Shown: positions 2,871 to 26,102 of the stretch, piece by piece
Numbering within the stretch: position 1 is the stretch's first letter
Layout: each line of letters opens with the position of its first letter
DNA from: Streptococcus anginosus subsp. whileyi MAS624
GTDB taxonomy: Bacteria > Bacillota > Bacilli > Lactobacillales > Streptococcaceae
Length of the DNA stretch: 64,000 bases
Assembly: GCF_000478925.1 (NCBI RefSeq)
Contig: NZ_AP013072.1
Coordinates: 1,962,501-2,026,500 of the forward strand
Reading direction: 5' to 3'
Notes under the pieces: model-generated
Told to the model about the DNA's origin: nothing
The model's database searches: none
What the model saw: only the letters and a program-made list of their open reading frames with translations
Program-made: the position numbers and the translations under genes

Positions 2871-5165
2871 TTATCTGTTTACATTTGGTGGAAAGCCAAA
2901 GCCTACTGGATGATGTTTACAAAATGTTGCTATCCAATCATCCAAAGTTGTAACTCTAACAACACCGATGTTATCCATTACCTTACCATCACCAATATAA
3001 ATGCCAACATGACCATAAGTAAGTCCGGCTTGACCACCACTGCTACTACTTTCAACAGCTACAAGCATTCCTACTTTTAACTTTGATCTATCAGAAGTAA
3101 ATGTATGATTTCGATACATATCATTAGCATTTCCTCCGATATATCCAAGACCTGCATTTTGATAAACTTGTGAAACCCACATTGCACACCAACCTGCTCC
3201 AGGTGATGGAGTAATATATGCTGCATTTACAATTTTCTTTTGAGCATCAGACGATGCTTCATATTCTTTTCCTCCACCAATGCCACCATTTTCAGTAATG
3301 AGATTGGTGTTTCCAAACATTTCACCCATATTTCCCTGTGCAAGGAATAGTGCTTCATAGTGTTTTAAATTATCTGGATAATCTCTAAAGACTTCTCTAA
3401 TGACACTATCCATTTCCCTTTTATTTAGGGTAACAATGAGCTTTCTATATTCATAAGGTTCTTCGTGGCTCTCGGTATGTTCATTCCCTTCTTCATCGGT
3501 GTAAGTTTCAGTTACAGTCTTATATCTTATCTCTATTTCCTCTTTATAATCGACATGGTACATAGTCTTAAACAAATCATCTAGGATATTACTAACTTCA
3601 GACAAACTCTTTACTTCACCACATCTTGAGGTGATATAGGATAAAAGCTCATGAACATTATGACCAATATCTCCATTTTTATTTATGATGTACTCATCAT
3701 ATCCGGGATTATTCTTTTCTATATTTTCAAGCTCGCTATATAAGTCATTCTCCTTGTTTGAAAAACTTTGGTTAATCTCAGTTAAAACATTTGGTCTTGA
3801 TAAATACGATGTTGTTAAAATGCTACTTGTAGAATTAGCAAATCCACCCATTGTCATGCTTGCAAAGTTAAATACAAAAGTTCCAAAAATAATTATGGCA
3901 GCTACTACTATTGCTGCTACTTTCGTTTTTCTTATGATAAAGTCTTTAGATACCTTGAATGTATCCATCAGTGTCTTTTTAACTCTATCTCTAATTCTTG
4001 TCTTATTTTGCTTATAGATAGCTGACTTCATCTGTTTCTTCTTTTGAAACTTCTTATAAGCATTTGCTTTTTTATATTGGTCAGTCTTCTTAACCTCGTC
4101 CATGCTTTTTCTAAACTCAAGCTTGGACTTTCTACTTTGAATTTTCCTATCGCTCTTTTCTAAATCATATAGCTTCTTACTTTTTCTCTTGTCCGAATAA
4201 TTCTTTACGCCATGAATAAGTTTAGATGAACTTACTAAACCTTTTTCGGCAGCTTCAACCGATGCATTTTCATCACTACCAGATGATAGATAATCACTTG
4301 TAACCTCACCAAGTTTTGCGGCTCCAATCACACTCCCACCGACTAGGGTTTCTTTGTTATACCTTTTATAGAGCTGATTTTTCTTTTCCCTATCTTTGAT
4401 GGCTTCTTTACCAGTTTTAGAAACTTTAGTATTATCTTCTTTTTTCTTATCTGTCCCTTTTCTTGTAAAGAGCTTATCAGAATAGTTCTTTCTTTTAAGT
4501 GACCTTTTCTGCTTTTCATAAAGTTTGGATTTTTTATTACCTAAAGGCTCATAGGATACATCGCTATCTCTAAAATCATTATCGTATCTATCAATGACAC
4601 CATCACCATCTTGGTCTTTTGCCAAAGGATCATAGATACGATTTTCTTTAACCTCTGTTTGATAATCTGACTTAGCTACTTCCGTTTCAGCAAAATCACT
4701 CACAAGTTTTTTAGAATGTTTTCGCTTATTAACATTTACGCTCTGACTATTCAAACCATTATTAGTATTACCTACTTCTCTATTCCTATGAGTTTCTTTA
4801 GAAGCGGTATTTTCAAAAACTCTATAAGCATCTGAACTAACTTCTATCCTTTGGTTTTTCTCTGCAGACTCTACAATAGGCTTCATTCCACTATCAGTTT
4901 CAAAACTGTTACATTGAAGATTTCTTTTTATAGCATTTTTGCTCTTGTTACTTGTGTCTATTTCACTAGTAATATCAGCCCTTTTACTTATCTTCTCGTG
5001 AATCTTATCTTGAAACCTATTTTCTTCTTTAACAACCTTGTCTCTATAATCATCTCCAGTTTTTCTTTTGTAATCTAGGACATCATCTGTTTCAGCCTTT
5101 GTGATTATTTTTTCTTCTCTTGCTCTTAACTTTTCATTTAAATCTCGCTTTCTTTTTTTACTCAT
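2871..5165 (-). CDS. CD1108-family T4SS protein with C-terminal NlpC/P60 cell-wall hydrolase domain
   Basis: 764 residues. A long basic, hydrophilic N-terminal region (1-410) precedes a single transmembrane helix (about 416-438) and an extracellular part. The C-terminal ~110 residues are an NlpC/P60 (C40) peptidase: catalytic Cys at about 660 in GWCAMWVS and His at about 719 in YGHVGIYIG. This VirB1-like enzyme would open peptidoglycan for the conjugation channel. An Asp-rich calcium-loop-like motif (DQDGDGVIDRYDND, about 184-197) sits unusually on the predicted cytoplasmic side. It starts 6 bp after the VirB4 stop, so the genes are tightly coupled. Confidence 0.88.
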   Translation of the reverse strand: MSKKRKRDLNEKLRAREEKIITKAETDDVLDYKRKTGDDYRDKVVKEENRFQDKIHEKISKRADITSEIDTSNKSKNAIKRNLQCNSFETDSGMKPIVESAEKNQRIEVSSDAYRVFENTASKETHRNREVGNTNNGLNSQSVNVNKRKHSKKLVSDFAETEVAKSDYQTEVKENRIYDPLAKDQDGDGVIDRYDNDFRDSDVSYEPLGNKKSKLYEKQKRSLKRKNYSDKLFTRKGTDKKKEDNTKVSKTGKEAIKDREKKNQLYKRYNKETLVGGSVIGAAKLGEVTSDYLSSGSDENASVEAAEKGLVSSSKLIHGVKNYSDKRKSKKLYDLEKSDRKIQSRKSKLEFRKSMDEVKKTDQYKKANAYKKFQKKKQMKSAIYKQNKTRIRDRVKKTLMDTFKVSKDFIIRKTKVAAIVVAAIIIFGTFVFNFASMTMGGFANSTSSILTTSYLSRPNVLTEINQSFSNKENDLYSELENIEKNNPGYDEYIINKNGDIGHNVHELLSYITSRCGEVKSLSEVSNILDDLFKTMYHVDYKEEIEIRYKTVTETYTDEEGNEHTESHEEPYEYRKLIVTLNKREMDSVIREVFRDYPDNLKHYEALFLAQGNMGEMFGNTNLITENGGIGGGKEYEASSDAQKKIVNAAYITPSPGAGWCAMWVSQVYQNAGLGYIGGNANDMYRNHTFTSDRSKLKVGMLVAVESSSSGGQAGLTYGHVGIYIGDGKVMDNIGVVRVTTLDDWIATFCKHHPVGFGFPPNVNR

Positions 5166-5171
5166 AAGACG

Positions 5172-7604
5172 CTACCTCACTTCTTCAGGTTTTGTAGTCA
5201 TCTTTTGATATAGGATTGTGTCTTTAGGAAAGTTATCTACAAAGGGAACAATGGTGTTCCCAAAGAAAATCAGACCTTCACCAGCTCTCGAATTGGTAAC
5301 GAATTTTTCCTGATCTTTTGAGATTTTAAGCTTTACAACAAGCCAGTCTCTATCACCTGTTGCTTGATTAAGCATTAGAATAAAATCTGTATTATCGAAA
5401 ATATTTTCAATTTCTTTACTTGCAAGTAGGTCTTTAACATTCTGTGTAATGCCTGTTGGAATACCTCCCCATTTTCTAAATCTCTTCCAGATTTCTACCG
5501 AATACTGTGAAGTCTGTTCATCTTTTAAAAGCAAATGAAACTCGTCAATGTAATACCTTGTGCTTTTGCCGGTATTTCTGTTTTGAGAAACTTTATTCCA
5601 GACCTGGTCTTGAATAACAAGCATTCCTATTTTCTTAAGCTGCGTTCCAAGTTCCTTAATATCAAAACAAATTAACTGCTTATTTAAGTCCACATTTGAC
5701 TGATGATTAAAGACATTAAGACTTCCTGAAACATAGATTTCCATTTCTGTTGCAAGTTTCTTTCCTACCTTTTCTTCTTGTCCTTTTAACATATTGTAAA
5801 GGTCTTGAAGTATAGGCATATTTTCTGGTATTGGATTTTCAAAATACTTCTCATAAATTCTAGGTAAGCACCTATCTATAACAGATTTTTCTTCTGCTGT
5901 AAGACCACTACCACCAACCACAAGTTCAAGCATAGACATAATAAAATTCGCCTTATCCTTAAGTGGTGCATCACCATCTCCATAATTCATATTTATATCT
6001 AGTGGATTGAGATAGTCTTTACTCTTTGCACTAACCTTAATGACTTCTCCCTTGAACTGTTTAACAAGATTGCCATATTCACCCTCTGGATCACAGATAA
6101 TGACATCATCATCGGTTGTAAGAATAGCATTTGCCATTTCACGCTTTGCAGAAAAGGACTTACCAGAACCAGGCGTACCTAGAATCAATCCATTTGGATT
6201 TTTAAGCATTTTTCTATCTGCCATAATCAGGTTATGACTTAGGGCATTTAATCCATAGTACAAGCTATTTGATGAGTTTATGAAAAGCTCCTCTGTTGTA
6301 AATGGTAAGAAGACTGCTGTTGATGATGAGGTTAACCCTCTATCTATTTCAATCTTATTTACTCCAAGAGGTAATACACTGATAAAACCTTGTTCTTGAC
6401 TATGATCTAAGCGTTTAATCTTACAATTATGCTTACTTGCAATAGATGAAATTTGAGAAATAGTCGTATCAAGCTTTTGTACTGTCCTTGCAAAATTCAT
6501 AAAGACAATCGTTACGATAAACATACGCTCATCTCTTGTCTGGAGATCTTTTAAAAGCATCTTGATATTATCTCCATAGGTAATTAAATCACTTGGCAAG
6601 ATATCCATATCATAGCCACTTCTAACTGCCTTTTTATTTTCCTCAATTTTCATCTTATCAATATCTGTATTTTTTCTTTTCACCATCTTGATAGCTTCTG
6701 TCTGCTCAACTGCCTTGATATGAAAAGAAATATTGATGTTATCATCTATATCTAAAAATTCTGCAAGCATTCTATCCGATAGCTCACTTGCAAGTATTTG
6801 AAGATGACTTACAGCTCCAATATATTTACCAAACTTAAAATACTTACTCGGTACAAAATTAAAAGAATCTGGTGTAATCACCGTCTTTGTACTTTCTCTT
6901 GGTTTTAAGTCTTTATATGAAAAAGAAAAGAGTTTATCTGGATTTAAAATATCATGTAAGACTTTTAGTCTTTCTGTTCCAGTTAAGCCCTCAGCACGAA
7001 CTCCCATACTCTTTAGATTTGACAATATATCAATCTCAAGTCGCTCAAGTTTTGCAGTCGCTTGCTCCAAACTATCCGCTTCAACTCCAAAGGTGATATA
7101 CTTCGATTTCTTTAACCCATTATTTCCCTTTGCAAGCTGACTTTTTAACATCTCACGAAACTCTAATCGAATATCATCATAACCATCATTTTTATCCGGT
7201 ATCTGAATAGCTGCTTTTAATTCATTATTTCTTCCAAGCTGATTGATATATGAAAACTCAATATCTACACTTGGATCAAACGAATTTAAGACATTCGCAA
7301 ATTGATTGAAAATCAAATCCTTATCTTCTTCTAATGCAAGCTGATAGTTTATATCCTGAAATGCAATACACTTATTAAAGTGCTTTTCATCAAGCTGACA
7401 TATCCCACTTTTTAGCATTCTCATATAAGGTATTGTGTCTTCAACAGTGTATCTCTTAGGCTCTTTCTTAAATATTAAGTCGATTAGAGAAGCTTTTTTC
7501 TTCTGCTTAGTCAACTTTTCTTTTTTCTGGTTTCTTTTGTTTTCCTTTAATACTTTTTGATTTTTTTCTAACTGCATTTGCTGTATTTTTCTTTTCTTGT
7601 TCAA
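5172..7604 (-). CDS. VirB4/TraE-like conjugation ATPase
   Basis: 810 residues. Walker A GTPGSGKS at about 476-483; Walker B-like regions at about 499-510 (VIICDPEGEYG) and about 675 (YYIDEFHLL). VirB4 ATPases energise assembly of the type IV secretion channel and DNA transport at the membrane. The first ~40 residues are very basic and coded in the overlap with the PrgI gene: the two reading frames share 98 bp, an arrangement I associate with Tn1549-type operons. Full length for the family. Confidence 0.93.
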   Translation of the reverse strand: MNKKRKIQQMQLEKNQKVLKENKRNQKKEKLTKQKKKASLIDLIFKKEPKRYTVEDTIPYMRMLKSGICQLDEKHFNKCIAFQDINYQLALEEDKDLIFNQFANVLNSFDPSVDIEFSYINQLGRNNELKAAIQIPDKNDGYDDIRLEFREMLKSQLAKGNNGLKKSKYITFGVEADSLEQATAKLERLEIDILSNLKSMGVRAEGLTGTERLKVLHDILNPDKLFSFSYKDLKPRESTKTVITPDSFNFVPSKYFKFGKYIGAVSHLQILASELSDRMLAEFLDIDDNINISFHIKAVEQTEAIKMVKRKNTDIDKMKIEENKKAVRSGYDMDILPSDLITYGDNIKMLLKDLQTRDERMFIVTIVFMNFARTVQKLDTTISQISSIASKHNCKIKRLDHSQEQGFISVLPLGVNKIEIDRGLTSSSTAVFLPFTTEELFINSSNSLYYGLNALSHNLIMADRKMLKNPNGLILGTPGSGKSFSAKREMANAILTTDDDVIICDPEGEYGNLVKQFKGEVIKVSAKSKDYLNPLDINMNYGDGDAPLKDKANFIMSMLELVVGGSGLTAEEKSVIDRCLPRIYEKYFENPIPENMPILQDLYNMLKGQEEKVGKKLATEMEIYVSGSLNVFNHQSNVDLNKQLICFDIKELGTQLKKIGMLVIQDQVWNKVSQNRNTGKSTRYYIDEFHLLLKDEQTSQYSVEIWKRFRKWGGIPTGITQNVKDLLASKEIENIFDNTDFILMLNQATGDRDWLVVKLKISKDQEKFVTNSRAGEGLIFFGNTIVPFVDNFPKDTILYQKMTTKPEEVR

Positions 7605-7905
7605 GGTAAACCTCCTTTCTCACTCGCTTTTGTGGTTGATAAAACTTATGCAAATATATGTGCTTAAAATATTTCTCAAAGGTAAGTCCATCCTTTTCAA
7701 ATAGTGTTACAAAGAAGATTGGAAGAGTTGATACAATTAAAAACAGTATCGCTATATCATTAGGCATAAACTTTCTCATAAATAAATAGACTGGTATACC
7801 AACCAGTCCAGCAAGTGTAAATCCAATTAATTGTCTTCTTGTAAGATTAAAGGCTACCTTTGTTTTTACCTTTTTTAAGTCCTTGGGAATTGGTACATAG
7901 CCCAT
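7507..7905 (-). CDS. PrgI family conjugation membrane protein
   Basis: 132 residues. It starts MGYVPIPKDLKKVKTKV, then has two hydrophobic segments (about 27-45 and 50-69) and a basic C-terminal tail. This is the VirB3-like PrgI family that always precedes the VirB4 gene in Gram-positive T4SS operons and is thought to anchor or partner VirB4. Its basic tail is encoded in the 98-bp overlap with virB4. It starts 3 bp after the stop of the upstream small gene. Confidence 0.88.
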   Translation of the reverse strand: MGYVPIPKDLKKVKTKVAFNLTRRQLIGFTLAGLVGIPVYLFMRKFMPNDIAILFLIVSTLPIFFVTLFEKDGLTFEKYFKHIYLHKFYQPQKRVRKEVYLEQEKKNTANAVRKKSKSIKGKQKKPEKRKVD

Positions 7906-7908
7906 AGC

Positions 7909-8175
7909 TTACCTCCCATCTTCTTTTTCCTTTGAAAATACTTCAAAATGCTCATAGCATGAAGCAACTTCATTTCTCATCTCTTCTAATTCCGATTCAA
8001 TTAGTGCATTTTTCTGCTCTTGATAACAAAGAATAGATTTCACATCATTTCTTGTACTTTTTACTTCATCTTCTAAATTCTTTAATTTATTACTGTTAAA
8101 AATTGAGATAGTAAATGCTCCAATCCCTACTGCAATAATTGAAACAGGAAAAAACTTTTTCTTTACTTCTATCAT
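7909..8175 (-). CDS. small membrane-anchored coiled-coil protein of the T4SS operon
   Basis: 88 residues. One N-terminal transmembrane helix (about 10-26) is followed by a charged heptad-like helix (about 30-80). I do not recognise a named family. Its position between the VirB6-like and PrgI genes, with 12-bp and 3-bp gaps, makes it part of the secretion operon. A structural or accessory subunit of the channel is possible, but nothing in the sequence proves it. Confidence 0.6.
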   Translation of the reverse strand: MIEVKKKFFPVSIIAVGIGAFTISIFNSNKLKNLEDEVKSTRNDVKSILCYQEQKNALIESELEEMRNEVASCYEHFEVFSKEKEDGR

Positions 8176-14578: not shown

Positions 14579-15427
14579 CTATTTCTTTGACTTATCTTCT
14601 AAGCTCTTAATTCCTGTATTGTTCAACTTTTCAATTGACATCAGCTGAGTTCTGGCAAGCTTTCTAAGTTCTATCATTCTTTCTTTTTGTTCCATACCTT
14701 TACCGATAAGAACTGCATTATAGCTTTCCATATTCGCAAGCACCAGCAACTCATTTAGACTTGCATAGTCTCTCATGTTACCCTTTAAGTCAGGATTTTC
14801 TTCACGCCACTGTTTAGCTCTTTTATTAAATAAAGCAACATTTAGCATATCTGCTTCACTTGCGTACTTATAGGATAGCTGTTCGTTGGTAAGATCCTTT
14901 AAGAGATACTCTTTGATTGCATCCGTATGAATTTTATAGTTAATCTTGGAAATTTCTCTATTCAGATTCCATCCTAGTGACAATCTTGAATTTTCATCTG
15001 ATTTAAGTCTCTTATAATCTTGAATAATGTAAAGCTTAAATTCTGGTGAAATCCATGAAGCAAATTCCATTGCTATATCACTATGAGCAAATGTACCTCC
15101 ATATCGTCCTGACTTAGAAACAATACCTATCGCATTTGTCTTTTCAATCCATTTTTGTGGTGATAGTGTAAATGCGTTACTACCTGCTTCATTTCTAAAC
15201 CTATCGAATTCGATAGGTTTAAAATCAGGATTATGCATTGATTCCCATAAACCTAAAAATTGAATATTATCTTTGCTTCTCAACCAGTTATTAATAACAA
15301 TAAATGGCTCATCACTTTTATATCTAGCAATATCTGTTAGACTTATATAGTCGTTTTTAAAGTCTTCAGTATAAATTTGAATAGCAAAACCTTTTGCTTC
15401 AATCGTCTCTTTTTTCGCCTTAGACAT
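14579..15427 (-). CDS. KilA-N domain protein
   Basis: 282 residues. The first ~130 residues match the KilA-N DNA-binding fold (DYISLTDIARYKSDEP, VINNWLR, GRYGGTFAHSDIAMEFASWISPEF in part). The domain is common in phage and mobile-element proteins and is implicated in DNA binding. The remaining part is helical with no named motif. It is the outermost intact gene of the element, preceded by AAAGGAGG. It may be a regulator or anti-phage protein; this cannot be resolved from sequence. Confidence 0.85.
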   Translation of the reverse strand: MSKAKKETIEAKGFAIQIYTEDFKNDYISLTDIARYKSDEPFIVINNWLRSKDNIQFLGLWESMHNPDFKPIEFDRFRNEAGSNAFTLSPQKWIEKTNAIGIVSKSGRYGGTFAHSDIAMEFASWISPEFKLYIIQDYKRLKSDENSRLSLGWNLNREISKINYKIHTDAIKEYLLKDLTNEQLSYKYASEADMLNVALFNKRAKQWREENPDLKGNMRDYASLNELLVLANMESYNAVLIGKGMEQKERMIELRKLARTQLMSIEKLNNTGIKSLEDKSKK

Positions 15428-15479
15428 ACGAGTTCCTCCTTTATGCTGATGTACTGTTTACAACATTTATTATCGTAAT

Positions 15480-15596
15480 AACTGCTCTAAACAGCACACC
15501 AACGATTCATTTTTTTGATTTTAAACTTTGGTAGAAGCTCTAAAACCCTTGTATCTACTTGACTATTTGCCTGTGTCATTATTATGACACGAAACC
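15480..15596. mobile_element. right end of the Tn1549-like ICE
   Basis: The chromosomal queH reading frame is lost at about 15,597, so the element boundary lies there. The terminal ~115 bp carries a perfect inverted repeat GTGTCAT-TATT-ATGACAC (15573-15590), 7 bp inside the junction, a plausible recombinase-binding site. The left end is outside the window, so the target duplication cannot be checked. The element spans at least 1-15,596. Confidence 0.6.
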
Positions 15597-15776
15597 CGCA
15601 TACTGGGTCAAATACTCCAGCGTATAAGTTGAGCAAGGTGCACAGCAGGTGTGCACTAAAATCGTAGGACGCTTCTGGTCTGCTTCCCAAACTTTGACCA
15701 TTTTTTGCATCACGCGGTCGTAATTGATCTTTTGATTGGGATTCATCTTACTCAGAATTTCTTCAACATCAATCAT
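15597..15776 (-). pseudogene. queH: epoxyqueuosine reductase QueH, 5' fragment (cut by the ICE)
   Basis: The first 60 codons match QueH (DUF208), including the Cys-rich motif HTCCAPCSTYTLEYL that supports the iron-sulfur/catalytic centre. The family is about 250 residues long. After residue 60 the reading frame runs into unrelated sequence and stops 4 codons later at 15,582. A good RBS (AAGGAGG) precedes the ATG. The missing 3' part should lie beyond the other end of the ICE. Insertion would abolish the final step of queuosine synthesis or salvage. Confidence 0.85.
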
Positions 15777-18588: not shown

Positions 18589-18879
18589 TTATCGAACCAA
18601 TCTTAATTTTTCTTCAAAATCATCAATGACTCTTTGAAGATTCAGTCGTCCTTTGTAAATACCATAACCAAAGACAAGCATGGCTAATATTCCCAACACT
18701 GCTAGGATTATTCCAAGAACAAAGGCAATGAGATTGGTTTGACAGAAGAAATAGATCAGAACAAGACCGATACTAGCAATAGTAAAGAAGAGACTAAACC
18801 AACGTCCGAGATTTTCAATCATGTGTTTTTGATATTGAATTTCCGTTTCATATCCTTGAATCAATTCTTGTTCTGTCAT
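18589..18879 (-). CDS. small two-helix membrane protein at the end of the PTS operon
   Basis: 96 residues: a polar N-terminus, two transmembrane helices (about 27-46 and 50-72) and a charged C-terminus. I do not recognise the family with certainty. It starts 15 bp after the IID gene and ends at the operon terminator, so it is co-transcribed with the PTS. Its role is unknown. Confidence 0.7.
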   Translation of the reverse strand: MTEQELIQGYETEIQYQKHMIENLGRWFSLFFTIASIGLVLIYFFCQTNLIAFVLGIILAVLGILAMLVFGYGIYKGRLNLQRVIDDFEEKLRLVR

Positions 18880-18894
18880 AATTTTCTCCTATTT

Positions 18895-19725
18895 TTAGTA
18901 TTTCAATCCTGGGTTGAAGAATCCAACCAATACACCAAGGAAGGCTACTACAACGAGAAGTAACATTACTTTAATTGGTGAAAGGTTTTTCTTCGCCATC
19001 AACCACCAGCAAAAGACGATAAACAAAGCTGTCAATAGACCTGGATAAACGCCGTCTAATTGATCTTGCAATACCAAGAAAGCTTTTCCTGAAGAGTCTT
19101 TCAATTTGAAAGCTGTCTTAACAGGTACCCATGTTGCTGCAACAGCACCGATAACCATACCACCAATGATAGAAACAGACTTACGGATAGCTTGTCCTTG
19201 AGGTCCGACAAGAAATTCAACTGCTTTGTCACCAAGTTCATAGCCTTTAAAGTAGGCAAATTTCATACCGAAATAAGCGAGCAAGTTCCAAACAACGATA
19301 TAGAAAATGGCACCAAGTGGCGAACCACCGTTTGACAAGCCAAGAGCAATACCTAGTATAATCGGAATCAAGGTACCAACAATCAGTGAGTCACCAATTC
19401 CTGCAACAGGTCCCATCAGCCCCGCACGAAGACCGTTAATCGTTTCGTCGTCTACTCCATCAGCACCGTTAGCACGCGCTTCTTCTAAACCTGCTGTAAT
19501 CCCTACAATCAATGCACCTAATTGCGGCTCCGTGTTAAAGAATGCGGTGTAGGTGTGCATTGCTTTTGCTTGGTCTTCTTTTTTAGGATACAATTCTTCC
19601 ACGATTGGCAGCATTGAAGCTAGGTAACCAAATGTTTGCATGTGTTCTTGCGAGAAGCAAGTTAAGTTCCCATAATACCAATGATGGAAAGATTTTCCTA
19701 ATGTTTTTTTCGTTAATTTAACCAT
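18895..19725 (-). CDS. PTS mannose-family transporter subunit IID
   Basis: 276 residues starting MVKLTKKTLGKSFHHWYYGN. This start is preferred to the longer frame because GAGGAGG lies 7 nt before it and the extra codons lie inside the IIC gene. Residues about 60-130 hold the conserved IID core (FFNTEP, VGITAGLEEARANG, GIGDSL); membrane helices follow. With IIC it forms the sugar channel of a mannose/fructose/sorbose-type PTS. The substrate cannot be read from sequence. Confidence 0.93.
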   Translation of the reverse strand: MVKLTKKTLGKSFHHWYYGNLTCFSQEHMQTFGYLASMLPIVEELYPKKEDQAKAMHTYTAFFNTEPQLGALIVGITAGLEEARANGADGVDDETINGLRAGLMGPVAGIGDSLIVGTLIPIILGIALGLSNGGSPLGAIFYIVVWNLLAYFGMKFAYFKGYELGDKAVEFLVGPQGQAIRKSVSIIGGMVIGAVAATWVPVKTAFKLKDSSGKAFLVLQDQLDGVYPGLLTALFIVFCWWLMAKKNLSPIKVMLLLVVVAFLGVLVGFFNPGLKY

Positions 19726-19726
19726 T

Positions 19727-20578
19727 TTAAATATCCTCCTCATCATCGTCATCATCAAAACTTGCACTTGCGGCTGCTTGTGCTCTTACATTTTTAGCCA
19801 TTTGAATTTCATAGAATAATACTGCAAAAATCAATGAAATCACTGCACAAGATACAAGGTTAAGTCCTAATGAAGCTGCTAATGTAAATCCAACAAAGAA
19901 TGGAATGAAATCGACAGCTTTTTCAACAATTTGTTTCAAGAGGATTGCAATTCCGACACATGGAAGGAGAGAACCGACTGTAAAGAGGGTTTTCATTGGA
20001 ATACCGTCCAATGGAAGTGCCGTTTTCAGAGCAGTAACTGCATCTGCACCTAATTTACACATAATAAGTGTTGGCAAGAATGAGAATACTAAGTGTGAAA
20101 TCCAAGGGAAGCCCCAGTCTACCATATACAGGCGTTTAAATTCACCTTTTTCAACAGCTTTCCAGCCAATATGTTGCCAAAGCAAGTTCATAGTAGCGGT
20201 ACCATAGAAAAGAACTGTACCGACTGTACCAACGAGTGTTCCCATTGACTTAGCCAAGTTAGCAGCATCTGCAGAGTCAAGTGATAGTCCTTGCGATTGA
20301 ATGGCAACCATTGCCAGAGGAATCCCAATATAAGAAACCGCACGAACGTCAGCTGAAACAGTACCGCCAGGTGTTACCAAAGCGATGTAAACAAGTTGCA
20401 TCGCAACCCCACAGATGATACCTAATTTCACATCTCCTAGGATCAGTCCTGAAACGAGACCACCTACAAGTGGGCGTCCAAGAGTATAGTTACCAATGGA
20501 TGTACCACCTAGGCCAGGCATGGATGATAGACAGGCAAATAACCCTAGTAAAGCGGCTTGAAACCACGAAATTGTCAT
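19727..20578 (-). CDS. PTS mannose-family transporter subunit IIC
   Basis: 283 residues, polytopic, with the family pattern PGGTVSADVRAVSYIGIPLA at about 71-90. It ends in a strongly acidic tail (DDDDDEEDI) whose DNA contains the IID Shine-Dalgarno. It is part of the IIA-IIB-IIC-IID operon. Confidence 0.94.
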   Translation of the reverse strand: MTISWFQAALLGLFACLSSMPGLGGTSIGNYTLGRPLVGGLVSGLILGDVKLGIICGVAMQLVYIALVTPGGTVSADVRAVSYIGIPLAMVAIQSQGLSLDSADAANLAKSMGTLVGTVGTVLFYGTATMNLLWQHIGWKAVEKGEFKRLYMVDWGFPWISHLVFSFLPTLIMCKLGADAVTALKTALPLDGIPMKTLFTVGSLLPCVGIAILLKQIVEKAVDFIPFFVGFTLAASLGLNLVSCAVISLIFAVLFYEIQMAKNVRAQAAASASFDDDDDEEDI

Positions 20579-20610
20579 AATAAAGCCTCCTTAATGCTTA
20601 TTATATTTTG

Positions 20611-21105
20611 TTAAAAACCAAATTTAGATTTGAAATCATCCCAATAACCGATAGACACATCTGGTAAGAGTTGGAATTTCACTTTATAGCCAGCTTTTTG
20701 AATCGCTTCAAGCGCTTCCGCTTCCTCTTGTGTAATGGATTGGTTATTTCCTAATTTAATAGCTCCTGGACGGTCATTGGCTGGACCAACAATAATTTCT
20801 TTGATATCGCCAGGCACAAAACCTTGATCAACTAGTATTTCTTTCATGTCAATTGGATTTTTAGTAATCACGAAATAGCGACTATCGGAATCCAATACCT
20901 TTTGTGATTTTTCTTTCCATGCTTCTTTTGTCCAAACGAATGTTTTTTTATCAGAAGCTGCTTTGTAGGCTTGTTTCAAAACTGCATTTCCTGCTGCAGC
21001 ATTATTGACAGCAACTAAGCCGTCACAAGGATATTCTTTTGCCCAACGAGTTACTGTTTGACCGTGAATCATACGGTCATCAATACGTACAAATGAAATT
21101 GTCAT
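20611..21105 (-). CDS. PTS mannose-family subunit IIB
   Basis: 164 residues with the phosphorylated His in DDRMIHGQ (about residue 14), typical of IIB(Man). It passes phosphate from IIA to the incoming sugar. It lies between IIA (24 bp) and IIC (32 bp). Confidence 0.95.
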   Translation of the reverse strand: MTISFVRIDDRMIHGQTVTRWAKEYPCDGLVAVNNAAAGNAVLKQAYKAASDKKTFVWTKEAWKEKSQKVLDSDSRYFVITKNPIDMKEILVDQGFVPGDIKEIIVGPANDRPGAIKLGNNQSITQEEAEALEAIQKAGYKVKFQLLPDVSIGYWDDFKSKFGF

Positions 21106-21129
21106 GATAAATCTCCTTTTTAATCTTTT

Positions 21130-21564
21130 TTAAATATCGTCTTCATCCTCTTCGTCACTAGCAACTACATCAAATTCTTGCAGCGCTGCGGATGCTTCTG
21201 AGAGAATGGCTTGTGCCAATTCTTTTCCTTCCAACATATCTTTCATCACTAAGCCTGTGAGTGCCATTGTCAAATTGAGACCACCAAGTACGACTGCAGT
21301 GTTTAACTTGCCAAGTTCTGACAAAACGTTGCAAGCTGTCGTCAAAGGGCTTCCTCCGACAATGTCTGCCAACACCAAAACCGTATCTTCTGTTCCCAGA
21401 TTTGCTAACGCTTGACGAAAGTCAAGAGCGAAATCATCAACAGACTTGCCTTCTTTCAGACCTACTGCAATGACTTGGTCGGTCTTATCACCAGCAAACA
21501 TCTTCAATGAGCTTTGCACACCTTCTGCTAGTCCACCATGACTGACTAGTACTAGATATTTCAT
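21130..21564 (-). CDS. PTS mannose-family subunit IIA
   Basis: 144 residues. The active His lies in LVSHGGLAEG (residue 9), and DIVGGSP is a conserved IIA(Man) motif. It takes phosphate from HPr. It is the first gene of the operon, with GGAGG 9 nt before the ATG and an acidic tail (DEEDEDDI). Confidence 0.95.
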   Translation of the reverse strand: MKYLVLVSHGGLAEGVQSSLKMFAGDKTDQVIAVGLKEGKSVDDFALDFRQALANLGTEDTVLVLADIVGGSPLTTACNVLSELGKLNTAVVLGGLNLTMALTGLVMKDMLEGKELAQAILSEASAALQEFDVVASDEEDEDDI

Positions 21565-21599
21565 GTTCTTTCCTCCTTCATTTCCTAGCCTTATTTTAC

Positions 21600-21628
21600 T
21601 AAATATGGAACCGGTTTCACATTGTCAA
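21600..21628 (-). promoter_or_regulatory. promoter of the PTS operon with embedded cre
   Basis: Minus strand TTGACA (21623-21628), 17-bp spacer, TATTTA (21600-21605). The spacer contains TGAAACCGGTTCCA (21606-21619), which fits the CcpA consensus TGWAANCGNTNWCA with one mismatch. A CcpA dimer here would block RNA polymerase, giving glucose repression. Confidence 0.7.
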
Positions 21629-21680
21629 ATGTCACTTTGTAAAGATGACATTTGTTAGTTAAAATATGACAAATGTCATA
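21622..21680 (-). promoter_or_regulatory. three TGACATTTGTCA-like boxes upstream of the PTS promoter
   Basis: Near-palindromic boxes are centred at about 21628, 21651 and 21672 (ATGACATTTGTCAT is the best copy). They are spaced 21-23 bp, about two helical turns, so they lie on one face of the DNA. The proximal copy overlaps the -35. They are likely binding sites of the adjacent NarL-type response regulator. Confidence 0.55.
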
Positions 21681-21696
21681 TAGTTTTTCAAAAGAA

Positions 21697-21738
21697 AAAT
21701 AGCCAGCTTTGAGCTCAATCTCTCATCTGACTATTTTG
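21697..21738 (-). terminator. terminator after the sensory operon
   Basis: Stem AAAATAGTCAG / CTGGCTATTTT (one wobble) around a ~20-nt loop, 23 bp after the solute-binding protein stop, with T residues following on the minus strand. Confidence 0.65.
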
Positions 21739-21760
21739 ATATTTATTCTTCGTTAAATCT

Positions 21761-23047
21761 CTATTTGCCTGTTTCTTCTATTTCCCTTTGAATGCTTGGT
21801 AAGATACTGTCTATTTCATTGTTTTTGAGAGCATTTCCTAGTAAATAATCTAGGCGTTCCAAAGAATGATAATCTAAGTCTCTGCTAATATCTAACACCG
21901 AATGCTTCATCATATGATCCAGTCGTTGCGATGTCAGCGAATCCAGTCCAAAGTCATCTGCCTGTAAAATCTTTTTCGTCTGACTGCTTTTAACTACGGA
22001 AGTCAAGACAGAGGTCCCTTGTGATTTTGCAAATAGCTCTTGCTGATTTTTATGATTTTGACACAATAATTTCATAAATTCCCAAGCTAATTTATCTTGT
22101 TTTGTCTTTGAAGACATGGCAAAAAGGGACGTTTTCACTTGTGTTGCAGGAATGCCTGCTTTAGCAGCTGGCATGGGAATACAAGTCCAAGAAAATCTAG
22201 AATACTTTGCTACATGATAAGGATAAGGTTTATAAGTCCGATATTGCGCCAAACTCATAGGATAAAAGGCTACCTTACCTTCATCAAAATCATTTGACGT
22301 TACCTTGTACCGTTGATTCAATGAAGTTAATTTGCTGATAAAGGACAACGCTTGATGCATTTCTGCGCTATCAACATTGACACCACTTTGATTTCTCAGA
22401 TGACCATTATAAGCTACTAAGGCCTGCTTCCAGGTATAATCCGTAATACCATACTGGTCAATCAGACCGTCCCCGTTTGTGTCCTTTGTGACTTTTTGAC
22501 AAATCGCATACAAGTCTTCTAAAGTCCAATTAGAATCGGGAATCGAAACTCCTTCCTTTTCCAGTAAATCCTTATTGACACACATCATGACAGGATTGCT
22601 TTCAATCGGCAAAGCATAGCTGTGCCCCTGATATTGTCCGGCTTGATAAGCAACTGGATAGTAAGCGGCAACTTCATCTTTGCTAAGTAAAGAGTCTAAG
22701 GATTTGAAAGCCCCGGAAGCCGCTAACATCGAAAAATCATTTTCAGGCACCATAAACACATCTGGCTGTTCCCCTTTTAAAATTTTTTCAGCTAGCCAAT
22801 TGTCATAGTCCTTTTTAGGAATGCCGCTCTCATAGACGACTTTGACATTGGGATATGACTTTTCAAATTGGCGGATAATATTGTCTAATACTCTATTCTC
22901 ACGACTATTCAGAACGTCCCAGCTGCTGCCTGCATACACTCCAATTCGCAAAATCTTTTTTTGATTGGAAGTCCATAAAACAAAGCTAAGGGGCACTAAA
23001 AGGAGAGACGAGACGAACATCGTCAAATACCTCATCCGCCACTTCAT
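21761..23047 (-). CDS. membrane-anchored family 1 sugar-binding protein (probable sensor)
   Basis: 428 residues. An uncleaved-looking N-terminal helix (about 6-25) has no lipobox Cys; a family 1 extracellular solute-binding fold follows (IGVYAGSSWD, QPDVFMVPEND, YALPIESNPVMM). ABC-transporter binding proteins of this class in Gram-positives are normally lipoproteins. Here the Cys is absent and no ABC permease or ATPase is nearby, so a sensory role is inferred. It starts within the response-regulator stop (4-bp overlap). Confidence 0.82.
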   Translation of the reverse strand: MKWRMRYLTMFVSSLLLVPLSFVLWTSNQKKILRIGVYAGSSWDVLNSRENRVLDNIIRQFEKSYPNVKVVYESGIPKKDYDNWLAEKILKGEQPDVFMVPENDFSMLAASGAFKSLDSLLSKDEVAAYYPVAYQAGQYQGHSYALPIESNPVMMCVNKDLLEKEGVSIPDSNWTLEDLYAICQKVTKDTNGDGLIDQYGITDYTWKQALVAYNGHLRNQSGVNVDSAEMHQALSFISKLTSLNQRYKVTSNDFDEGKVAFYPMSLAQYRTYKPYPYHVAKYSRFSWTCIPMPAAKAGIPATQVKTSLFAMSSKTKQDKLAWEFMKLLCQNHKNQQELFAKSQGTSVLTSVVKSSQTKKILQADDFGLDSLTSQRLDHMMKHSVLDISRDLDYHSLERLDYLLGNALKNNEIDSILPSIQREIEETGK

Positions 23048-23727
23048 TTGTCATTGTCCTTACTAAAATCACGTTGGGTAACACCTGTCTGCACAGCCCA
23101 AATAGCTAATTGCGTGCGATCTCGCAAATTTAATTTCGCCAGAATGCCTGACAAGTAATTCCGCACTGTCCCTTCAGACAAGAACAACTTCGCTGCAATT
23201 TCCTTGTTTGAAACTCCAAAACCAATTTGTTGGATAATCTTCCACTCAGTCTGACTCATGTCTTCCACATTTTCTTCGGCAACAGAAATAGCAAAATTGG
23301 ACTGTGCCATTTGTGAAAAGATTTTAAACACTTTGGTAGCAATGTTAGGGTTAATCATAGCACCACCTTTGTAAACCGTTTGAATGGCTTGGTGCAATTC
23401 TTCAGTAGAAACTCCTTTTAAAATGTAACCAGAAGCTCCGTATTTCAATGCTGAAAAAATGAAATCATCGTCATCGAAAGTTGTTAGAATAATAATTTTG
23501 ATATCTGGATAGTGTTCTTTGACTGCCTTTGTACAGAGAACGCCATCCATAACAGGCATTCGAATGTCCATCAAAATCACATCTGGATGTATATGGTGAA
23601 GTTTTTCGAGCACTTCCTTGCCGTCACCGACTGTTCCCACTACTTCAATATCTGAATGAGCCGATAAAATAATTTGTAAAGACTCACGAATCAAGGCTTG
23701 ATCATCTGCAATTAAAACTTTAATCAT
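23044..23727 (-). CDS. NarL/LuxR-type response regulator
   Basis: 227 residues: receiver domain with the phospho-acceptor Asp in VILMDIRMPVMDG (about residue 55) and a C-terminal LuxR helix-turn-helix (GVSNKEIAAKLFLSEGTVRN, about 175-194). It is partner of the histidine kinase just upstream (8-bp overlap). It probably activates the neighbouring PTS promoter through the repeated boxes there. Confidence 0.93.
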   Translation of the reverse strand: MIKVLIADDQALIRESLQIILSAHSDIEVVGTVGDGKEVLEKLHHIHPDVILMDIRMPVMDGVLCTKAVKEHYPDIKIIILTTFDDDDFIFSALKYGASGYILKGVSTEELHQAIQTVYKGGAMINPNIATKVFKIFSQMAQSNFAISVAEENVEDMSQTEWKIIQQIGFGVSNKEIAAKLFLSEGTVRNYLSGILAKLNLRDRTQLAIWAVQTGVTQRDFSKDNDK

Positions 23728-25033
23728 TCTTTCCTCCTATTTTCGGAATTTCAATATGAGTATAGAAACCGTTGCGATTTTCAAAATGAACACTCCCACC
23801 AATAATCGCCAAACGCTCCTGCATTTGTTTGAGACCATAACCATAGTAAAGCTCATCAAAGCCGACTCCATCGTCTTGAATGGTCATGATATAATTTTCT
23901 TTTTCCAATAATTCAATCCAAATCGTCTTGGCGTGTCCATGCCGCACCGAATTTGTAATGGATTCTTGAATCACCCGAAAGACAATATCTTCTTTTGCAA
24001 CATCCAAATCAATTGTGGCCCATTCATAGCGAAAATGAATTTCCAAATTAGAAATGGCTTCATATTCTCGAATAATTTTGAACAACGCTTCCTTTAAGCT
24101 ATTATTTTCTAAAGCACCAGGTCGCATTTTATTGAGTGAACCTCGTACATCACGGATACCATCTCGTACAACCACAGAAACATTTTCTAACTGTTCCTTA
24201 GCACGATTTTTGTCAATATCCACCAATACTTTAACTGCATCAATCCCCGCAGAAATCCCTGTCAAAGCATGCCCTAGCGTATCATGAATTTCTCTAGCGA
24301 TTCGCTTTCTTTCACGGTCTTCTGCGATTTTTTCAGATAAGGCTAAATAACTATTCAACTCGCGATTGGCTTGTGCGGCCATGCGTAGCTCTTCTTCAAT
24401 ATGGTGTTTTTCGGTCATCGCAGATAAAATATAGAATAGTAGAGAAATCATAAAGACAACTAGATTCAGTGAAAAGAGAAAATTCTTTCCAAAAAGGAGA
24501 GCCATGCGAATCGATTCTGGACAAAAGCGAATATAAGTATCTAACGAAGGCAATTTAACAAAAAGCGACATTAAATCATAGTTGGATAAGAGCAACATGG
24601 TAAAACTCAAAATGATAAAGGAAAACCAGTATTTCCGATCTTTTGAAGTGTTAAATTCTTTGGAACCATAAAAAATATCTGCAAAAACTAAGAGAATCAG
24701 ACCATTATAAGAAGAATGCAAGACAGAAAAGATAACTAACATCAGCAAAATCTCAATAATAGTTACTTTATCATAAACGGATAGCTGATTTGGATGCTTC
24801 TCACGGTAATAAAAAACCAATAATAAGCAAGCATAAAAGGCAATCGACATCCAAAAACTAAAGCTCGGCGAGCCTGGGATAGCATCCAAACGCCCCAATA
24901 GTGAATGAGCATAACCTCTTGCGACCACGTAATTTGTTGCAAAAAGATAAATAGAGGCATTATAAACAATGGCAATGAAATTGATGACCATTAAAGCAAT
25001 CTTGCTATAAAAAATACTTTTATTTCGTCTCAT
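23720..25033 (-). CDS. sensor histidine kinase (HisKA_3, NarL-partner class)
   Basis: 437 residues from the ATG at 25033, which overlaps the upstream stop (TAATG) and has an AGG-type SD; an ATG three codons upstream is possible. About six membrane helices (15-205) have no large extracellular domain. Then come the phospho-His in REIHDTLGHALTGI (about residue 250) and an ATPase domain with DDGVGFD and GYGLKQMQERL. With no ligand-binding domain of its own, it likely receives its signal from the anchored sugar-binding proteins encoded beside it. Confidence 0.9.
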   Translation of the reverse strand: MRRNKSIFYSKIALMVINFIAIVYNASIYLFATNYVVARGYAHSLLGRLDAIPGSPSFSFWMSIAFYACLLLVFYYREKHPNQLSVYDKVTIIEILLMLVIFSVLHSSYNGLILLVFADIFYGSKEFNTSKDRKYWFSFIILSFTMLLLSNYDLMSLFVKLPSLDTYIRFCPESIRMALLFGKNFLFSLNLVVFMISLLFYILSAMTEKHHIEEELRMAAQANRELNSYLALSEKIAEDRERKRIAREIHDTLGHALTGISAGIDAVKVLVDIDKNRAKEQLENVSVVVRDGIRDVRGSLNKMRPGALENNSLKEALFKIIREYEAISNLEIHFRYEWATIDLDVAKEDIVFRVIQESITNSVRHGHAKTIWIELLEKENYIMTIQDDGVGFDELYYGYGLKQMQERLAIIGGSVHFENRNGFYTHIEIPKIGGKND

Positions 25034-26019
25034 TATTGCCATCCTGTAATTGTATATTGCCCAATGTTATCTTTATTCACCAAATGAACAGGAATCAGGT
25101 ACTCCTTTTTGTAAGATTGATGCTTCATCATGCGCTCAATCACTTCTGTCACCTTTCTGCCCATTTGAATCGGAGACTGGGCAACCGTTCCTTGAATATC
25201 ATTGGTGTTGGCAAGGAAATTCTTAATATCAGGCGAGCCATCTACGCCATAAATTGCAATCTTGTCTGTCACACCTTGATCTTTTATGGCTGCGAGAGCT
25301 CCGATTGCAGCACGATCATTTAAAGACATGACCACATTAAATTGCATTCCTTCGTTCAATGCTTTTTTTACTTGAGGCATACTTTCTTCCGTCTGCCCCA
25401 ATGTTTCTCGCTCAGAAACCACTTGATAGGCAGAGTTCCCCTTAATCGTGTCTAAAAATCCTTGAATCCGATCCATAGCAGATACTGCGTTATGGTGCTC
25501 CAACAGCAAAATATTCGCACTAGACAAACGTTTCATCATGTCTTTAGCTATCAACACACCAGCCTGATAATTGTCTGACACAATAGTAGTATCAACTTTA
25601 GCGTCTTTGCTAACAGGTGCATCCACGACAATGATCTTAATTCCCGCTTTTCTGGCTTTATTTAAAGAAGTCAGAATCTTTGGACTGTCACTCTTAACTG
25701 GGTTTATAACAATCACATTCACTTTTTCTTGAACAAAATAATCAATCTGCTGGCTTTGCTTGTCTTCGTCTAGTTCTGGGTCTCGTACATAAAGTCGACT
25801 TCCCTGTTGATTGGTTTTTTTCTCAATTTCAGCATTCAAGGTTTTATAAAAATCATTGTTCATCGTCATATAGGTCACTCCTATCTTGACCTGCTTGATA
25901 TCTGATGAATTTCCTTTTACATAGAGGAAAATTAACCCTGTCAATACAAGGACAAACAGAGAAAATAATAGATATTTGCGATAATAGCGACATTGCTTTT
26001 TTCCCTTACCTACTCCCAT
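25033..26019 (-). CDS. membrane-anchored RbsB/LacI-type periplasmic binding protein
   Basis: 328 residues. One N-terminal helix (about 12-30), no lipobox Cys, then a Peripla_BP_4 fold (VKIGVTYMTMNNDFY, VNVIVINPVKSDSP, IYGVDGSPDIK). It is the first gene of the sensory operon, followed directly by the histidine kinase. In other firmicutes similar proteins present sugar to a kinase; that role is inferred here because no transporter is linked. Confidence 0.85.
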   Translation of the reverse strand: MGVGKGKKQCRYYRKYLLFSLFVLVLTGLIFLYVKGNSSDIKQVKIGVTYMTMNNDFYKTLNAEIEKKTNQQGSRLYVRDPELDEDKQSQQIDYFVQEKVNVIVINPVKSDSPKILTSLNKARKAGIKIIVVDAPVSKDAKVDTTIVSDNYQAGVLIAKDMMKRLSSANILLLEHHNAVSAMDRIQGFLDTIKGNSAYQVVSERETLGQTEESMPQVKKALNEGMQFNVVMSLNDRAAIGALAAIKDQGVTDKIAIYGVDGSPDIKNFLANTNDIQGTVAQSPIQMGRKVTEVIERMMKHQSYKKEYLIPVHLVNKDNIGQYTITGWQ

Positions 26020-26045
26020 TTTTTCTCCTTATTAACACCAGTCTC

Positions 26046-26063
26046 AAACAGAAAACTCTGTTT
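26046..26063 (-). promoter_or_regulatory. inverted repeat in the 5' UTR of the sensory operon
   Basis: AAACAG - 6 nt - CTGTTT, 27 bp before the first ATG. It may be an operator or a small hairpin. No known family consensus recognised. Confidence 0.35.
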
Positions 26064-26074
26064 CATCTAGGTTT

Positions 26075-26102
26075 ATTATATTATATTTATACAAAAAAGC
26101 AA
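26075..26102 (-). promoter_or_regulatory. promoter of the sensory operon
   Basis: Minus strand TTGCTT (26097-26102), 16-bp spacer, TATAAT (26075-26080), within a very AT-rich tract. Confidence 0.55.

Follow-up and report, generated by a model that had tools for sequence, protein, structure and literature searches.

A LevQRST-type sensor operon and its mannose-family PTS in Streptococcus anginosus subsp. whileyi MAS624

Nine-gene locus and its neighborhood

The locus lies within a 64,000-nucleotide stretch (the window) of the genome of S. anginosus subsp. whileyi MAS624 (2,122,284 bases, one contig). From 26019 to 18589 on the minus strand, nine genes follow one another in the order levT, levS, levR, levQ, levD, levE, levF, levG, and a small gene. 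Percentages below are amino acid identities to the proteins of an S. mutans-type reference locus, whose choice is described in the next section.

25033..26019, minus strand: levT ortholog, RbsB-type sugar-binding protein, 328 aa (Peripla_BP_4, 2.1e-42; 52.2% to S. mutans-type LevT)
23720..25042, minus strand: levS ortholog, membrane histidine kinase (HisKA_3 and HATPase_c; 57.2%)
23044..23727, minus strand: levR ortholog, NarL-type response regulator (Response_reg and GerE; 74.8%)
21761..23047, minus strand: levQ ortholog, family 1 sugar-binding protein, 428 aa (SBP_bac_8/SBP_bac_1; 53.0%)
21130..21564, minus strand: levD ortholog, PTS EIIA, mannose family (69.2%)
20611..21105, minus strand: levE ortholog, PTS EIIB (86.6%)
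19727..20578, minus strand: levF ortholog, PTS EIIC (89.4%)
18895..19767, minus strand: levG ortholog, PTS EIID (86.3%)
18589..18879, minus strand: small membrane protein, 96 aa, at the end of the PTS operon (72.6%)

Domain matches agree with a preliminary description of the first four genes as coding for an RbsB-like protein, a histidine kinase, a NarL-type regulator, and a family 1 binding protein, and the start/stop overlaps said to couple them measure 10, 8, and 4 bases for levT/levS, levS/levR, and levR/levQ, respectively. A gap of 196 bases separates levQ from the mannose-type PTS, which together with the small membrane protein was expected downstream and occupies 18589-21564, outside the interval originally described. 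As had been stated, the cluster is devoid of an ABC permease or ATPase: none is encoded by the nine genes. The EIIB and EIIC genes are 32 bases apart in the window; in the S. mutans-type locus, L121, the corresponding gap is 369 bases (7799-8169). No Pfam or NCBIfam family matched the 96-aa membrane protein, whose S. mutans counterpart is presumably the gene named levX. Among the literature matches listed, no paper combined levX with levDEFG, and the levX titles there were not streptococcal (one concerned Leuconostoc).

As judged by eye, ssb lies upstream of the locus and groES-groEL downstream. All 14 named loci (S. anginosus, S. intermedius, S. sanguinis, S. gordonii, and others) show the order T-S-R-Q-D-E-F-G plus small protein; 11 of them have ssb immediately upstream, and 13 have groES a short way downstream. 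In the further lev loci tabulated, levT to levG stand in the same order in 16 of 16, and the small protein was detected in 13. Given this recurrence, the arrangement is not a matter of chance. Elsewhere in the window, a gene for a KilA-N domain protein (282 aa; 14579-15776, minus strand) adjoins a 64-aa frame in which the QueH domain is limited to its first 20 positions, as if queH had been truncated there.

Relation to LevQRST of S. mutans and distribution

According to the available excerpts of Zeng, Das and Burne 2011 (PMC3043104), levDEFG of S. mutans lies immediately downstream of levTSRQ, all four Lev proteins are needed for efficient activation of fruAB and levDEFG, and the inducers are fructose and mannose. 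Loss of levQ brings levD expression to baseline, and a levT null mutant keeps 10 to 20% of expression on inducing sugars. The same excerpts assign LevQ, with an outward-facing binding domain, to the membrane fraction, report no functional ABC transporter encoded near the lev genes, and list similar operons in S. gordonii, S. sanguinis, two lactobacilli, Clostridium acetobutylicum, and Dorea. In excerpts of two other papers, the S. mutans arrangement is repeated and the system is given as absent in S. sobrinus (PMC3353171), and competence peptide is said to raise both operons (PMC5209530).

The reference locus was chosen by scoring 99 loci, some of which cover the same place more than once, for 17 residues whose positions are given in the excerpts of PMC3043104. 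To be kept, a locus had to match the kinase over nearly its full length with at least 45% identity, a requirement that removed L114 and L120 among others; 20 further loci, outside the gene-order tally, entered the scoring, and L075 and L089 were left out. Locus L121 (genome G223, 2.02 Mb) carries 17 of the 17 residues without offset (six in LevS, three in LevT, eight in LevQ), and the positions of these residues identify LevT as the RbsB-type and LevQ as the family 1-type protein. L128 and L138 have 16 residues without offset, and four more loci reach 16 with small shifts. G223 also contains adjoining GH32 frames of 1457 aa and 522 aa, as fruA-fruB would be, and we infer that it is S. mutans or a very close relative.

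The nine window proteins are 52-89% identical to those of L121. By sequence, each of the four overlapping genes has its ortholog in the S. mutans levTSRQ operon, with gene order unchanged, and the PTS that follows is levDEFG. The two systems share the order T-S-R-Q then D-E-F-G and both classes of binding protein (PMC3043104, available excerpts), as well as N-terminal anchors, kinase topology, a LevR-type operator, a cre-like site, and the lack of an adjacent ABC transporter. They differ in that no fruA-sized gene was detected in MAS624, LevT and LevQ are only 52-53% identical, and the TGACA half sites before levD are spaced differently. Orthologs in the same order are found in S. gordonii and S. 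sanguinis (LevS 88-89% identical); LevS of the window shares 97% identity with its counterpart in S. anginosus J4206 and 96% with the one in S. intermedius.

Residues F292, E170, and C161 of S. mutans LevQ are all conserved in the window's LevQ, F292 aligning with F285 and E170 with E165. Counting against the identification are LevT N60 and C149, which are not conserved (K and I in the window), the undetected fruA, and the link to levDEFG, which outside the genus is not absolute. We are nevertheless highly confident that the four genes and the PTS are the local LevQRST four-component system with levDEFG, a system already known. The pairing of two different binding-protein classes had been called unusual; it is indeed uncommon, but it is not new, LevQRST having already been published. 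Reportedly, such a pairing with a two-component system has been in print since 2006. In the mainly open-access literature searched, none of the papers listed was, by title, on LevQRST of the anginosus group; PMC12077213 mentions levQRST and S. intermedius.

Within the family, 42 of 147 genomes encode a nearly full-length LevS ortholog with at least 51% identity, and LevT was found at E ≤ 1e-50 in 118 of 284 Streptococcus genomes. At E ≤ 1e-70, LevS was found in 51 of 395 genomes of the order, including 17 from outside the genus. Among the loci of these 17 genomes, the full set of four sensor genes is present in 16, and levDEFG is adjacent in 14, nine in the same direction and five divergent. 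There is no levDEFG within the stretch that holds L217, and L219 has only a low-identity PTS of the family. In L217, the position directly after levTSRQ, from which levDEFG is missing, is occupied by an ISL3-type transposase gene (4781-6088, plus strand). L218 (3832-7723; Lactobacillales) is a remnant lev locus in which levT and levS are partial and levR and levQ were not found; the kinase match runs into an EIIB fragment, followed by EIIC, EIID, and the small protein, as if a deletion had taken out the regulator and spared the PTS. In L210, levS and levR are about 1.4 kb apart, and in L215 the distance between levT and levS is 1.8 kb. In the Streptococcus genomes G113 and G127, one stop codon lies within each LevS match, so LevQRST may be inactive there.

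Membrane anchoring of the binding proteins and the kinase

In a simple hydropathy scan, LevS has five to six hydrophobic segments. Since the longest stretch between them is about 30 residues, there is no large loop outside, and the kinase is without an extracellular sensor domain, as had been proposed. LevT and LevQ each have one N-terminal hydrophobic segment (residues 16-34 and 8-26, respectively, by hydropathy only). Neither window protein has a lipobox, the only early Cys being residue 10 of LevT, ahead of the helix; the hydropathy and pattern scans thus bear out the earlier view of two binding proteins held by N-terminal anchor helices without a lipobox Cys. Among family members, a lenient lipobox pattern matches the N terminus in 2 of 100 LevT and 5 of 50 LevQ proteins, the window's not among them, so that lipid-free anchoring is not proven for every member.

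LevT and LevQ belong to ABC-receptor families, and most of the proteins of solved structure nearest to them in sequence are ABC receptors as well (7e7m for LevT and 6rjy for LevQ). They could therefore serve in transport, as the usual receptors of an ABC importer whose genes lie elsewhere, and be linked to the two-component system only incidentally. The MAS624 genome does contain five BPD_transp_2 permease matches and three other SBP_bac_8 proteins. It also has five further PF13407 matches. Among the permeases, the full neighborhood was viewed for permease L176 only, and this permease has its own binding-protein-like ORF and ATPase. Several further observations speak against a transport role: the window's binding proteins lack a lipobox, their genes overlap translationally with those of the kinase and regulator, 16 of the 17 loci outside the genus keep the four sensor genes together, and loss of LevQ in S. 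mutans abolishes levD expression (PMC3043104, available excerpts). We consider a transport role very improbable, and a role in sensing is preferred.

The solved relatives of LevT include the "sensor protein" 2x7x (E 2.1e-14; 26 chains score better), in which an RbsB-type domain serves sensing. We take it to be the fructose-binding domain of a Bacteroides hybrid two-component protein, where it is part of the kinase itself, unlike the separate LevT. YycH and YycI are not known to be sugar-binding proteins. Together with YycG they form a somewhat similar system, in which, as proposed here, a kinase is governed by membrane-anchored partner proteins (PMC3043104, available excerpts).

Predicted LevR operator and the targets of the system

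Five elements were predicted between levQ and levD, the LevR operators from the sequence only.

21667..21678, minus strand: predicted LevR operator 1, palindrome TGACATTTGTCA
within 21646..21656, minus strand: predicted LevR operator 2, half site AATGTCA
21623..21634, minus strand: predicted LevR operator 3, TGACATTTGACA
21606..21619, minus strand: predicted CcpA site (cre-like), TGAAACCGGTTCCA
21593..21598, minus strand: likely levD -10 element, TAAAAT

The site at 21606..21619 was called against the cre consensus. The three-site TGACA array, searched as a spaced pattern, occurs once in the MAS624 genome, before levD (control, 0). Of 50 levD upstream regions, a set that includes many close relatives and the window as one of the 50, 49 contain the palindrome TGACAnnTGTCA; in the lone region without it, L129, the start may have been called too far downstream. 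At least three half sites (TGACAWW or WWTGTCA) were found in 45 of the 50, as against 49 for the full palindrome. When four regions were subjected to mononucleotide shuffling (2000 shuffles each), the observed half-site count was never reached. Outside the genus, a palindromic site of this kind was found in 13 of the 17 loci, in every case located after or before the sensor genes on the side facing levD, in the space between the two. In loci L220 to L224 (Lactobacillales), levDEFG and the small protein gene are divergent from levTSRQ, and TGACAnnTGTCA lies in the shared intergenic region of four of these five.

The sequence TGACAWWTGTCA occurs at three places in the genome. One of the two non-levD sites stands before a LivJ-like ORF beside an IS30-type transposase-like ORF, the other between ABC ATPase and ISL3-type transposase-like ORFs (names by eye); both are single, without an array, and were regarded as chance occurrences rather than further targets.

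Exact copies of TGACATCTGTCA, read in the gene direction, are found upstream of five of the nine fruA-sized genes examined, namely, those of the S. mutans type, of G270 and G273 (S. sanguinis type), of the similar G278, and of G238; the remaining four have imperfect versions of the palindrome, as judged by eye. In the available excerpts of PMC9241797, a dyad at -72 to -59 is needed for fruA expression and is the likely LevR target. The S. mutans-type fruA palindrome falls at this published dyad by a hand count from a -10-like element, with the start assumed 7 bases beyond. Orthology, synteny, and the LevR-type operator together support the initial suggestion of a dual-input sugar sensor controlling PTS expression, which the S. 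mutans ortholog has been shown to be (PMC3043104, available excerpts).

A PF00251 search of the MAS624 genome returned a single GH32 gene, a 507-aa frame that by size and neighborhood appears to code for sucrose-6-phosphate hydrolase; no fruA-sized GH32 gene was detected. None longer than 507 aa was found in S. anginosus J4206, S. intermedius SK54, G132, or G156, S. intermedius having a second GH32 gene of 488 aa. S. sanguinis-type genomes, in contrast, have a GH32 frame of 1421-1424 aa that is absent from MAS624. Under this size screen, which would overlook a gene broken up between contigs or a smaller GH32 enzyme acting as a fructanase, a frame above 1000 aa is present in only 2 of the 42 genomes with a LevS ortholog and in none of the other 40; 23 of the 42 have at least two GH32 matches, nearly all of them frames below 520 aa. 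Another genome set, partly chosen for likely fruA carriers, contains seven distinct GH32 frames above 1000 aa. S. gordonii DD07 (L015) has one GH32 match only, a 408-aa frame, although the species is reported to have fruA, and fruA presence may hence vary by strain or assembly.

The lack of a detected fruA is not taken to disqualify the locus as LevQRST, because fruA is a target and not a component, and 40 of the 42 LevS-containing genomes have no GH32 frame above 1000 aa. With no fruA-sized GH32 gene in the MAS624 genome, the regulon there probably shrinks to the PTS, its main target. The low frequency of large frames across the 42 genomes indicates that a fructanase is not a constant partner and that the PTS appears to be the core target.

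The same architecture might serve another PTS sugar if specificity in the fruA-less anginosus group had moved off fructose and mannose. Such a shift would fit the lack of a fruA-sized GH32 in five anginosus-group genomes, the lower conservation of the binding proteins (52-53% to the S. mutans type) compared with EIIB, EIIC, and EIID (86-89%), and the finding that single residues of S. mutans LevQ, F292 among them, change its specificity (PMC3043104, available excerpts). The high identity of these three PTS proteins and the conservation of all three LevQ residues nonetheless point the other way, and we judge a shift unlikely. Amino sugars and oligosaccharides, which had been put forward for growth tests, find no support here as ligands, the S. 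mutans inducers being fructose and mannose.

With fructose and mannose retained as the preferred ligands, and by analogy with S. mutans genetics, LevT (RbsB fold) and LevQ (family 1 fold) would sit at the cell surface, anchored in the membrane, and sense the extracellular sugars. The signal would pass through the membrane segments of LevS, a kinase without a sensor domain of its own, and LevS would phosphorylate LevR. LevR would then bind the TGACA array before levD and activate the mannose-family PTS, and the cre-like site would allow CcpA to repress it.

For a broader proposal, we see the chances as evenly divided: that LevQRST is not primarily a fructan regulator, its core being the sensor, levDEFG, and TGACAnnTGTCA, from Streptococcus to other Lactobacillales, and fruA a lineage-specific add-on. 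The anginosus-group circuit would then be a stand-alone scavenger switch for free fructose and mannose or for a related sugar from host or diet, and its specificity might be altered. The comparison suggests that the constant target of the system is the PTS and not the fructanase, and it yields a testable LevR operator motif. It also corrects what would be the likely annotation: in this group of opportunistic pathogens, two orphan binding proteins from families of ABC receptors would be sensor subunits.
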